This document shows positions 25,766-48,408 of a stretch of DNA of 64,000 nt, one piece after another. The stretch spans positions 2,792,501 through 2,856,500 of the forward strand of contig CM073325.1 of assembly GCA_037043015.1 (NCBI GenBank), in the 5' to 3' direction. A model generated the notes under the pieces. That model was given only the letters and a program-made list of their open reading frames with translations. It had not been told where the DNA came from and searched no databases. The translations under genes were made by a program, and so were the position numbers. The stretch is from Bryum argenteum (taxonomy: Eukaryota; Streptophyta; Bryopsida; Bryales; Bryaceae). How positions within the stretch are numbered: the first letter of the stretch is position 1; each line of letters begins with the position of its first letter.

Positions 25766-26500
25766 TTAACCCTTAACCCTTAAACGCCCATGGGGTCTGA
25801 AACGGGCAGCCCAAAATTGGATCACAGCATCTTTTGGACTTGGGCATCATGAATAGTGCACTTTTTGAACTTGGGCATCATGAACTGACCAATCAGTGGT
25901 GAGCTTGCAACCTCCTACAAGGTTACGTACAACCCCAACCTACCTACCACAATCCTTTCAAAGCACAAAATCATTCATACAAATTGTGATTTGAATTGTG
26001 AAATTTCACTTTTTGAATGCATTAGAAGAAGGTGACCAGTTTGACATCAAAATATAAGTGAAATGTTGAGTACAATGAGAGCTACAGAGGAGATTCTGTT
26101 GGAATCATGCCCCTCGGGCTTGCTTGGGCGTTTAAGGGTTAAACGCCCATGGGGTCTAAAACGGGCAGCCCAAAATTGGATCAGAGCATCTTTTGGACTC
26201 GGGTATCATGAATAGTGCACTTTTTGAACTTGGGCATCATGAATAGACCAATCAATGATGAGCTTGCAACCTCCTACAAGGTTATGTACCACCCCAACCT
26301 ACCTACCACAATCCTTTCAAAGCACAAAATCATTTATACAAATTGTGATTTGAGTTGTGAAATTTCACTTTTTGAATGCATCTAAGAAGGTGACCAGTTT
26401 GAGATCAAAATATAAGTGAGAAGTTGAGTACAGTGAGAGCTACAGGAAAGATTCTGTTGGAATCAAGCCCCTCGGGCTTGCTTGGGCGTTTAAGGGTTAA
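25766..26500. mobile_element. ~360-bp TTAA element (outer), split inside its left terminal repeat
   Basis: The left end is TTAACCC (25766-25772), then the internal TTAA of its terminal repeat, where another copy is inserted; it resumes with TTAAACGCCC at 26139 and ends GGGCGTTTAAGGGTTAA at 26500. Without the insert the core is ~361 bp, the same as other members. No coding capacity. The TTAA duplication with CCC-starting ends is the piggyBac hallmark. Confidence 0.85.
25773..26142. mobile_element. ~360-bp TTAA element (inner), nested in the left terminal repeat of its sibling
   Basis: TTAA at 25773-25776 and 26139-26142 flank a 362-bp core with ends CCCTTAAACGCCC / GGGCGTTTAAGGG. Interior blocks CCAACCTACCTACCACAATCC and TGAGCTTGCAACCTCCTACA (spacing conserved) recur in all members. 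Confidence 0.9.
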
Positions 26501-26568
26501 ATGTACCAGAAATTTTACCAGCACTCATGCAGCCTGGAGGCCACTCGGCATGATCGAGCTTTGTACTT

Positions 26569-27077
26569 CCTAAGGCCCAGTTTATACTTGGGGCCCGATT
26601 GAGGGTCGGCCCAAACTCTCCAATTTTCAACCAATAGGATTGCTCGATTCTCTCAAATCGGGCCCAAGGGTTTTATACTAGGGCCGGTCCCAAGCATGAA
26701 CATATCCTACATGGCAGCTTATGTGGCAATAATTTGGCGCCAAATCTTTGGGCCTATGTGGTGTAATCGGGACAAGGTTTTCCTTGACCCGAAGATGAAA
26801 CTTGGGCCCGAATGTCCACCTCCGTTGGATTCTTTCAATCCCCACCGTCCATCAAAAGCTAGCAAAAGGACAAAGAATCGCAATTAACGAACTGGAATCC
26901 GAACTGGAGAAGCATGCAAGCAGGGTCCGAAGAATGTGGCGGCTGCGAGATTGTCGACCCCAATCCCTAAACCGGCGGATCCCACCGTTTTCTCACAAAT
27001 CGGGACCGCCTTCGGGCTGGCCCCAAATCAGGACCGCCTTCGGGCCGGCCCCTGTTCGTGTATAAACTCGCCCTAAG
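26569..27077. mobile_element. MITE-like element with TAAGGCCCAGTTTATAC ends
   Basis: Left end AAGGCCCAGTTTATACTTGG and right end (complement) AGGGCGAGTTTATACACG form imperfect inverted repeats, with extra inner copies of the GGGCC/TATAC words. GC-rich relative to flanks; no ORF of note. Target duplication is not resolved (CTAAG on both sides is possible). Confidence 0.5.
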
Positions 27078-28120
27078 ACCATTCCTTGTCGCATCTCCCC
27101 AAACCACCTTGCAAAGTCCCACTTGGCAAGTGCGATGGCGAGGCCCTCAAAATAACATGTGGATATGAGGGAGTAGGCCCCAACGCACACGAGAGAGACG
27201 ACATGTAAGCAATGGTTTTGCAGACTCCTCGGAAAAGTTGTTCAAGGAAGCGGCAACTTTCACGTGCAACAGGACAAACAAGGGTTTGTTCTCTTGTTGA
27301 TACACAACAAGGACAAGGACTCACGGAAGGTGAGGCGAATTTGACAAGACTGGGAGCTCGATGGCGAGAGGCGGAAAAATGTGGCGGTTGCGTCGGGGCA
27401 AGTGCTTCTTGCAAAAGCCGTTCACAGGCCTCTTACCGAGGCGCATAAGGCATGCTCTAACTTGCCATCTATAGTTGTAGCCAAGAACGGTGTTGTATCA
27501 CAAAGGACTTCTAGGGACCTTTTTTGCTGTTGTAACCAATCACGAGTACAAGCATGGTTCCATGAGATGAGGAGGATTTATACGCCACAGTACACGTGCC
27601 GTGGTGAGTATACAATCGTGTAGTGGTGGGTATATACCCTGTAAAAACGCCTCGGGGATCATTAATGCAGCCATTTGTGTGTCAAAAATTAAAAAATATG
27701 AAATAATGTAAAAATGCAAATTACAATAGCTTGCATAGAGCACTCCCAATGGTGCCAAGGCCCACGATCTCCTCTTCCTAATACTAGAACCCCAACAAAT
27801 TTCATGCTCACCCAACGACCTCCACATCACCAACACTTCTTAAGCAATCTACACTATTGCACCTTAGTGCGGTTGACACTAAGGATAGAGAATTGAAACT
27901 ATTTGAATACTGCAAATTCGTAGGTGTACTTGTAGCACTCCTCCTCGTAATGAGAATAAATGTCTTCAATTACACCACACACTACACCACTTACGAAATC
28001 TTGTGTAGTGATTTTTACTAGTGAACCCTCGCCATTGTACCCACCCCAAATGATGATTGCACAAAGTAATTCTCCTCACCCCCTAATGTTTTTAGATTGA
28101 TGAATCTAGTTCTTTTACCT
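27078..28120. other. Gene-less region
   Basis: Short frames on both strands (27073-27836) are mutual shadows without domain signal. No element ends were recognised. Confidence 0.45.
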
Positions 28121-28215
28121 CTTTGTCCTGTGGCCATCGAGGTAATGACATTACGAACAGACACTGTATTCACACCAATCTTCAATTGAAGATTGGAGTT
28201 CTTATCTATCTATCT
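28121..28215 (+). repeat. SINE 3'-end fragment (diverged)
   Basis: Matches the SINE 3' half (TGTGGCCATCGAGGTAATG, ATTACGAACAGACAC, then GGAGTTCTTATCTATCTATC). The GGCCCC block is replaced by a CAATCTTCAATTGAAGATTG palindrome. Head absent. Confidence 0.6.
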
Positions 28216-28363
28216 TGATGAATCCTGTTTGTCCATGAATATGCAGAAGAGATCAAAACCCTAAAAATGATCAAAGCATTTCCTTTTCACGTTTTCCAGA
28301 CACTTCTATGTCATAGCAACTGTGGCTAACGAGCAACTTCACCGGGCTTATCCAAACTAATTA

Positions 28364-46329: not shown

Positions 46330-47350
46330 TAACACTAAGGTGACGTGTAACATTTTGCAACTGATCGCTAAATTCAAGTAGCCTCAAAATTGGCATACGG
46401 TCTCAAAATTACCCACTTTTTATGCAAGGTGAAAATTTTCAAACTTAAATGGAATTAACCAAAGGATCTAGTACCTAACTTCAAAGCAAATATTTATGTC
46501 GAATCTCAAATTCAAATTTCTTACCGATTGTAAAATTATAATGTTTAAAGTTCGAAATTATGTTTTTTTTTTTTTTTTTTTTTTTTTTTTTTTTTTTTTT
46601 TTTTTTTTGAGAAAGGGTAAGTAGTACTTTGAGGGCTCAACAAACAATGAAAATTTGATAGAAGGCTCTTCACAATCTTGTTCCTAGGCGATTCAAGAGA
46701 ATGTCTATGCATATTTTACCCTTGCACGACTTATAAAACCTCCAAGAAATTATTGAAATATCCCAATGAGGATTAAAGGCAAGTCTTCAACAAAAAAAAT
46801 GGCATGTGAAAATTGGATTAAAATCCAAACGGTGAGATCATGCATCCAAACCTTACTTCCATGTACAAAACACAAAACTTGAAAAAAAGTAGAAACACAA
46901 AATTTTAATGAATTTTCAAAATTTCTGCAAACTTAAGACAAATTCTGAGAATTAATGAGCATATTCTCCAATTTTGGGCAAATTTTAGCATGCCTAGATA
47001 GTATTTCTAATCTTTGACCATGAATACCGGTACTCCAAAATATGAGGGGAAATCTCAAAGCACAAAAAGACTTTTCAGAAAGGTATGAGAAAACTCTACA
47101 ACTTGCTAGAGGTGTCGCGTTCATACAATTTAAATTTAGAAAATCAAAGGCCGATGAGACTCTAATCGACAAGAATTTGACTTCAATCAAATTACCCTTA
47201 GGGGCAAAAATTATCCGAAATTATCCTAATGTTGGCATCACTATTCAACAACTCTTGTGTAATGATGTATGGGTAGGTGTACCTTGGAAGTGTTCCTCCG
47301 TGAACTCGATGAACTGCTCATGAACTTGGATTTCACTAGAGTGCCAAGGT
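46330..47350 (-). repeat. Inverted copy of the dispersed repeat found upstream of RPS15
   Basis: Read on the minus strand it parallels 5850-6400 and 11200-11760 (GGATTTTAATCCAATTTTCACATGCC vs GATCCAATCATT...CATGCC, GTTAGGTACTAGATCC). A poly(T) run at 46563-46608 lies inside. Ends not defined. Confidence 0.55.
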
Positions 47351-47457
47351 CCATTTAGGATGTGAATCAATATGGAATTTTTTTGGTGATATCTCAGGAG
47401 GGTATAGCCAATATATACTTTTGAAGGTCATAATATTGCCTAACTTACCTTGGAGAT

Positions 47458-47734
47458 TTAACCCCTAAAGATCCAAGAAAGCCAAAATGGCTTTTCGGGG
47501 TTCTTGCAAGGAGTGAAATCAGCCAACTTTGAACATTTATAATCTCACATATGAAAAAGAATCAATGGTTCAAATTATACATGCAAGTAAAAAGGCAAGT
47601 TCACTTTCCAATCCTACGGTAGGTAGGTTGGACGTTCTAATTTATACTTAGATTAAGCTTTTTTGGGCGTGAAGTAAGCAAAGGTCATATTTCGTAATTT
47701 GAGCAATTAAAAATCCAGGATCTTTAGGGGTTAA
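47458..47734. mobile_element. 277-bp TTAA element (type D)
   Basis: TTAACCCCTAAAGATCC ... GGATCTTTAGGGGTTAA, exact inverted ends plus TTAA duplication. The interior is a diverged version of 39160-39416. Confidence 0.9.
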
Positions 47735-47810
47735 AGAGTTGAACTTACTTCTCATGTGAGTTACTGTTGCATTGTAATCTTGAATTTTCTTTTTCTGGAG
47801 GATTGTTAGC

Positions 47811-48163
47811 TTAACCCTTAAACGTCCAAGCAAGCATGGGGAGCTTGTTTCCAATAGAATCCGCTCTGAAGCTCTCACTGTACTCAAATTTTCACTTATA
47901 TTTCAATGTCAAACTAGTCACCTTCTTATGATGCATCCAAAAAGTAAAATTTCACAGAGTTTGTATGAGTGATTTTGTGCTTTGAAGGGATTGTGGTAGG
48001 TAGGTTGGGGTTGTACATAACCTTGTGGGAGGTTGCAAGCTCATCATTGATTGGTTCATTCACGATGCCCAAGCTCAAAAAGTGCACTATTCATGGTGCC
48101 CAAGTCCATCCTAAGTTGCTGAGATCCAATTTTGGGCTGCCCGTTTCAGACCCCATGGGCGTA
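47811..48163. mobile_element. ~350-bp TTAA element (inverted 360-bp family), right end taken by another element
   Basis: Starts TTAACCCTTAAACGTCC and reads as the complement of the 25773 copy up to CCCATGGGCG at 48161. The next bases (TA) join directly to a type D element, consistent with insertion at the internal TTAA of this terminal repeat followed by a small loss. Confidence 0.75.
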
Positions 48164-48408
48164 CCCCTAAAGGTTCTTGATGCAGAATTGTAAAAATGGA
48201 CATTCCCTTACTTCAGGCCTAAAAACTCTCAATCTAAGAATTATTTGGAAGATCCAACCGTAGGATCTTGAAGTTAACTTAACCTTCCACTCACTTGCCA
48301 AAATTGAACCGTTGATTCTTCTTCATTTGTGAGATTATAATGGTCAAAGTTGGCTGAATTTTGGACTCCAAAAAGCAGTTTTCGCTTTCCTGGACCTTTG
48401 GGGGTTAA
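48164..48408. mobile_element. ~245-bp TTAA element (type D, inverted)
   Basis: CCCCTAAAGGTTCTTG ... GGACCTTTGGGGGTTAA; near-complement of 44267-44514. Left TTAA is lost at the junction with 47811-48163. Confidence 0.8.

Follow-up and report, generated by a model that had tools for sequence, protein, structure and literature searches.

Insertions of TTAA elements at the end TTAAs of a 362-bp MITE family in Bryum argenteum and the possible role of target context

Nested elements at inner and outer end TTAAs

The window analysed here is the whole 64,000-bp stretch G000:C5:2792501-2856500 of the 258.8-Mb assembly (25 contigs) of the moss Bryum argenteum. It contains short elements flanked by the tetranucleotide TTAA, which probably are miniature inverted-repeat transposable elements (MITEs) of several families. 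The family of interest has a 362-bp core with exactly two TTAAs, at positions 4 and 356, each three bases inside an end; we call these inner TTAAs, and those flanking the element outer TTAAs. The original prediction for this window claimed four insertions of TTAA elements exactly at inner TTAAs among six copies of the family. A BLAST search with the core indeed found six 362-type copies, one of which matches over 304 bp only (86%).

The four junctions were read directly in the sequence and then measured (coordinates of hosts and inserts in Table 1). At the first, the TTAACCC of the host (25766-25772) is followed by a TTAA (25773-25776), a complete 362-bp core and a second TTAA (26139-26142); the remainder of the host runs to 26496 before its closing TTAA (26497-26500), and this second piece (26139-26496) shares 93.6% identity with the core by BLAST. 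The next two junctions occupy both ends of a single host. On its left, CCC (44264-44266) and TTAA (44267-44270) precede a 240-bp insert that is closed by TTAA (44511-44514), and on its right a 224-bp insert stands between TTAA (44863-44866) and TTAA (45091-45094), followed by GGG (45095-45097). The outer TTAAs of this host are degraded to CGAA on the left and CTAA on the right, and by coordinate arithmetic the host without its two inserts measures 362 bp, as had been claimed. At the fourth junction the 47811 host ends at GGGCGT (48162), a single A remains of the TTAA, and a 241-bp insert extends to 48404, followed by TTAA (48405-48408). Because its TTAA is decayed and the outer remnant of the host agrees in only four of seven bases, this case is the weakest. 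All four insertions were nevertheless confirmed.

To see whether nested junctions are true insertions, 23 junctions at 22 loci were read (two loci from a set defined by the left-end word and 20 from the full set; one locus had two junctions). The sample is non-random and comprises the first two loci of the left-end list, 12 on contig C3 and the first ones on C4. Beyond the insert, a host remnant resembling TTAACCC, exact or decayed, is kept at 17 of the 23 junctions; three have none (L031, L037 and L049), and three gave no clear reading (L034, which is a further stack, L042 and L043). By our own count from ends or BLAST, about nine inserts are members of the 362-bp family or similar to it, and about 14 come from other families, a raw count without correction for family abundance. 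The lengths of these other inserts include 224, 234, 253, 259, 260, 544, 578, 607, 738, 923/925 and 974 bp. Since the remnant is kept and the inserts are of many lengths and families, most nested cases are separate insertions by various families, which supports the inner TTAA as a real and recurrent insertion site. Two loci, L051 and L034, hold stacks of more than two elements, and at L051 a few TTAACCC heptamers stand in a row as a result of repeated insertion at inner TTAAs.

Stacks could also be amplified or rearranged composites, in which a nested pair was copied as a unit or elements recombined with each other. The three junctions without a remnant fit this, as insert and host may there have moved as one composite, and they equally fit the loss of one 7-bp TTAACCC unit by slippage. 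For the sample as a whole, however, the 17 retained remnants and the variation of inserts in family, length and host side argue against composites, as do the inserts at L038 and L047, which are 96% alike yet lie in opposite ends of their hosts. We regard composites as the least probable origin considered here, and recombination, raised beforehand as an outcome that would count against self-targeting, is not borne out for most of the sampled junctions.

Genome-wide occupancy was derived from exact counts of end words, which miss diverged copies, filled or empty alike. Inner sites of the 362-bp family were scored as empty where CCC stands before TTAAACGCCCAWGSRRK (1896 cases) and as filled where the element end GGG takes the place of CCC (124 cases, against 55 by the left-end word alone with a pattern one base shorter). 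This gives an occupancy of 124/2020, or 6.1% (95% interval 5.1-7.3%). The 4 of 12 ends filled in the window exceed the genome rate (P = 0.005 at 6.1%), but they form a local cluster in a window chosen post hoc among about 4,000 of equal size. The outer TTAA of the same ends abuts an element end in 113 of 1704 cases (6.6%), a count that takes in chance GGG (an estimated 14-25 of the 1704) as well as 362-bp copies that had themselves inserted next to another element. Inner and outer sites do not differ in occupancy (P = 0.54). A second family, whose ends (TTAAAGGTCC) also contain an inner TTAA, yielded 67 words, with 56 empty sites, nine filled ones (counted by word only) and two that show neither CCC nor GGG and were excluded. 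Its inner sites are thus occupied at 9/65 (13.8%), and the end effect therefore goes beyond the 362-bp family.

Control sites and background rates

As the 362-bp core has no further interior TTAA, control sites were drawn from elsewhere, namely from two interior TTAAs of 240-260-bp TTAA elements. Control 1 is filled in 9/560 cases and control 2 in 1/521, so that the controls differ from one another. Eight of the nine filled cases of control 1 were read; all eight resemble an element end by eye and a two-ended element was called at five, while the single filled case of control 2 is known from the word count alone. Pooled (10/1081, 0.9%), they fall far below the inner end site (P = 6e-14). A within-family paired control was dropped, because the 224-bp family is too rare (three near-full copies in the sequences examined) and the 362-bp core offers no other TTAA. 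Compared among themselves, host copies have a median identity of 0.93 (n=27), compared with 0.79 (n=4) and 0.88 (n=3) for copies carrying the controls. Control copies are more diverged and therefore do not look younger than hosts; host age was judged an unlikely artefact on these four and three control copies.

Background rates were taken from two sources. The first was the DNA flanking 29 fetched copies of the 362-bp family, where about 14 of 440 TTAAs carry an end resembling a terminal inverted repeat (TIR; ~3%). The second was a set of 20 stretches of 3.5 kb, spaced over C1-C10 at round coordinates that were chosen, not drawn at random; here about 4 of 285 do so (~1%). Both rates are approximate, as they use a TIR-like pattern on one side of the TTAA and derive from one-sided counts of 15/13 and 2/5. 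A search for two-ended elements in the spaced stretches found one element, with 288 TTAAs present. The excess at the inner site is twofold over the local background (P = 0.012) and about fourfold over the spaced stretches (P = 0.0003). End TTAAs are measurably hotter than these controls, which were chosen without regard to GC content, by about 2 to 7 times per site. The original prediction had proposed counting insertions at the inner TTAA against other TTAAs of the same element; the core has none, and the expected contrast was found instead against the interiors of other elements and against nearby TTAAs.

The largest contig, G000:C1 (44.1 Mb), makes up 17% of the assembly but contains only 30 of the 1896 empty 362-family ends and 14/560 and 8/521 of the control words, a shortage of TTAA elements of about seven- to elevenfold. 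As a speculation, this contig could possibly be a sex chromosome or an otherwise distinct chromosome. At G000:C2:564872-565012, a 21-base word from the 240-260-bp TTAA elements occurs in six copies with 24-bp spacing, which may be a minisatellite grown inside such an element.

Besides the elements in Table 1, the window has a run of TA dinucleotides of ~185 bp (44060-44246) immediately left of the doubly nested host, and open reading frames with Ribosomal_S19 (12502-13164), Myb (21112-22065) and HMA (9020-9481) domains.

Table 1. TTAA elements and nested insertions in the window (positions count from its first base)
Feature	Position	Strand	Basis
362-family host with flanking TTAA, interrupted by the insert 25777-26138	25766..26500	+	direct reading; BLAST
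362-bp copy inserted at TTAA 25773-25776, the inner one in the left repeat of the host	25777..26138	+	reading, BLAST, element list
978-bp TTAA element, background insertion outside any element end	30183..31160	+	element list
249-bp TTAA element containing one interior control word	39164..39412	+	element list
578-bp TTAA element, background insertion	40480..41057	+	element list
225-bp TTAA element, background insertion	43177..43401	+	element list
362-family host with two nested inserts	44264..45097	+	reading, BLAST
240-bp TTAA element, CCCCTAAAGG ends, in left inner TTAA (44267)	44271..44510	+	reading, BLAST, element list
224-bp TTAA element, CCCTTAAAAG / CCCCTAAAGG ends, in right inner TTAA (44863)	44867..45090	+	reading, BLAST
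360-bp diverged relative, CCCTTAAAGG ends, both inner TTAAs empty	45879..46238	+	BLAST, element list
269-bp TTAA element, background insertion	47462..47730	+	element list
362-family host, reverse orientation, insert at inner TTAA, junction decayed	47811..48408	-	reading, BLAST
241-bp insert of the 47811 host, a relative of the 44271 element (240 bp; 96.7% identity)	48164..48404	-	reading, BLAST
362-family copy, both inner TTAAs empty	52641..53000	+	BLAST, element list

Target context and rival explanations

Flanking bases were compared with background in 100 listed of 588 flanks plus the 58 flanks of the fetched copies. The base at -1 of the TTAA is enriched in C (1.42x) and G (1.31x) and depleted in T (0.69x; P = 0.003), and base -5 departs as well (P = 0.03), while the remaining four flanking positions in this sample show no departure. 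As a cause of the hot ends these bases were rejected, since they predict only 1.0-1.8x at the inner site and 0.9-1.7x at control 1. Because this leaves little contrast, the wider content of guanine plus cytosine (GC) was examined. Within 50 bp, the 29 fetched 362-bp insertion sites have a GC content of 0.42, compared with 0.36 at background TTAAs (P = 6e-5). With other elements added, 43-44 insertion sites have a mean GC of 0.41-0.43, against 0.35-0.36 at about 1,000 background TTAAs, and a logistic model of these sites gave a trend in which each 0.1 of GC multiplies the odds of insertion by 1.6-2.1. With an inner-site GC of 0.52-0.60 over the widths used (measured in one copy, at the left end of L004) and rounded control values of 0.40 and 0.32, the model puts the inner site at x2.7-3.3 of the average TTAA, whereas control 1 should be near that average (about x1.1) and control 2 below it (x0.6-0.7). 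The observed excess of 2x over local background and of ~4x over both the spaced stretches and control 1 is near this expectation.

We therefore favour, with moderate confidence, that insertion generally prefers those TTAAs that lie in GC-rich DNA, and that the ends are hot because they happen to be such places. The several MITE families share the end motif CCC[C/T]TAA and are presumably moved by common transposases; they insert at TTAA and are met more often where the surrounding DNA is GC-rich. The ends of the 362-bp family offer two exact TTAAs, the flanking one and another three bases further in, within sequence of unusually high GC content. This would explain why later elements of various families land there more often per site than at controls. 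Docking by an end-bound transposase would not be required, because the general GC bias already predicts a 2.7-3.3 fold increase at the inner site. GC bias thus presumably causes the hot ends, and target context, as a modest target preference, can explain most of the end excess.

Several observations weigh against this explanation. Firstly, the GC difference widens with the window (P = 0.10 at 5 bp, 0.02 at 10 bp and 0.002 at 20 bp), and regional DNA may therefore be the real variable. Secondly, only 2-4 of the 43-44 model sites reach the GC content of the inner site, which itself comes from the end of one copy. Thirdly, the ratio of the inner site to control 2 is 32 (with 1/521 filled), compared with a predicted ~4-5. 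Lastly, the 13.8% occupancy of the second family is higher than the 362-family rate (P = 0.033), and among end sites the GC model covers only that of the 362-bp family.

An alternative is end-directed targeting, in which a transposase bound to resident terminal repeats captures an arriving element and guides it towards a TTAA at or just inside the end, similar to IS30. It would account for inner and outer TTAAs that are equally hot and both close to the element end, for the effect in two families with related ends and for the cold interior TTAAs of TTAA elements; in addition, PMC3952818 says that Tn10 reintegration is directed to its own inverted repeats. However, the GC trend already predicts most of the excess. 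The same paper reports that cell assays yielded only a single Sleeping Beauty autointegration in the element's own repeats, and of the mapped piggyBac autointegrations 12 were in regions B and C and 11 in rpsL. End-directed targeting is thus a possible though unlikely cause. From the self-targeting originally proposed, the hot inner TTAA and its repetition in the second family stand, but the inner TTAA is no hotter than the outer one, a preference for its own family is not supported, with ~14/23 sampled inserts from other families, and on the GC expectation docking at the ends is not required. A broader version, in which repeat-bound transposases of eukaryotic TTAA elements steer elements of related families to end TTAAs, so that they stack and spare genes and the inner TTAA serves as a landing pad, seems to us more doubtful still.

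Selection for a 'safe haven' would instead let elements insert at random and survive better inside other elements. The lower rate in spaced stretches (~4/285) than near 362-bp copies (~14/440) agrees with it, and the idea is in print for MITEs (PMC3695323). Insertion at interior TTAAs of other TTAA elements would be expected to do as little harm, yet only 10 of 1081 are filled, and we consider such selection improbable, well below end-directed targeting in either form. Of the self-nesting, safe-harbour MITE family suggested as new, nested MITEs and the 'safe haven' were already discussed in that paper, citing Jiang and Wessler 2001.

Element identity and published relatives

Each of the 29 copies of the 362-bp family that were fetched by BLAST and checked has TTAA at either end (58 of 58 flanks), whereas the de novo element lists require TTAA by construction and give no evidence on target duplication. 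The TIRs of a 362-bp copy match at 15 of the first 16 bases, within the ~12-19 bp of the piggyBac-type criterion. Kolobok elements also use TTAA. The end motif CC[C/T]T is present in the 362-bp family (CCCT) and in the CCCTTAAAGG family, while its fourth base departs in CCCC families (e.g. those of 240, 578 and 978 bp); together with TTAA, such ends are given as the hallmark of piggyBac in PMC2872659. From these features the elements are probably non-autonomous piggyBac-like TTAA MITEs of several families, presumably mobilized by a piggyBac-type transposase. A comparison of the 362-bp core with the phage collection gave no match.

The closest published parallels are the coral CMITEs, which according to PMC2872659 are likewise short, with TTAA duplications and CCCT ends. 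That paper also describes TTAA MITEs in tandem, and an element that arose by insertion at a TTAA with direct repeats on either side, within another TTAA-flanked element. Unlike in coral, several co-resident families here start with CCCC, and the excess at both end TTAAs was counted against controls. The nested MITEs of carrot, maize and rice share MITE-in-MITE insertion and the 'safe haven' idea (PMC3695323, which describes the carrot case and cites Jiang and Wessler 2001 for both); those of carrot use TA or TTA duplications, whereas here one exact TTAA in the end repeat is used. IS30 shares insertion at element ends, but according to PMC9333248 this bacterial element moves by copy-out-paste-in and is reported to insert next to its own inverted repeats, while our case is a statistical excess with a simpler possible cause. 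In piggyBac autointegration TTAA elements also enter a TTAA of their own DNA; PMC3952818 concerns one excised element in cells, whereas here insertions occurred between different copies and families. In a literature search that left most subscription journals outside its reach, no published description of TTAA MITEs with a hot spot at the inner TTAA of their ends came to light.

Overall, the nesting of MITEs is well measured here, and the chance that more lies behind it is small. It provides, for TTAA elements, a per-site nesting rate at one exact tetramer with controls, and suggests that what looks like self-targeting may be due in large part to target context. Should the excess persist against a GC-matched control, these moss elements would make end-directed integration tractable in a eukaryote.

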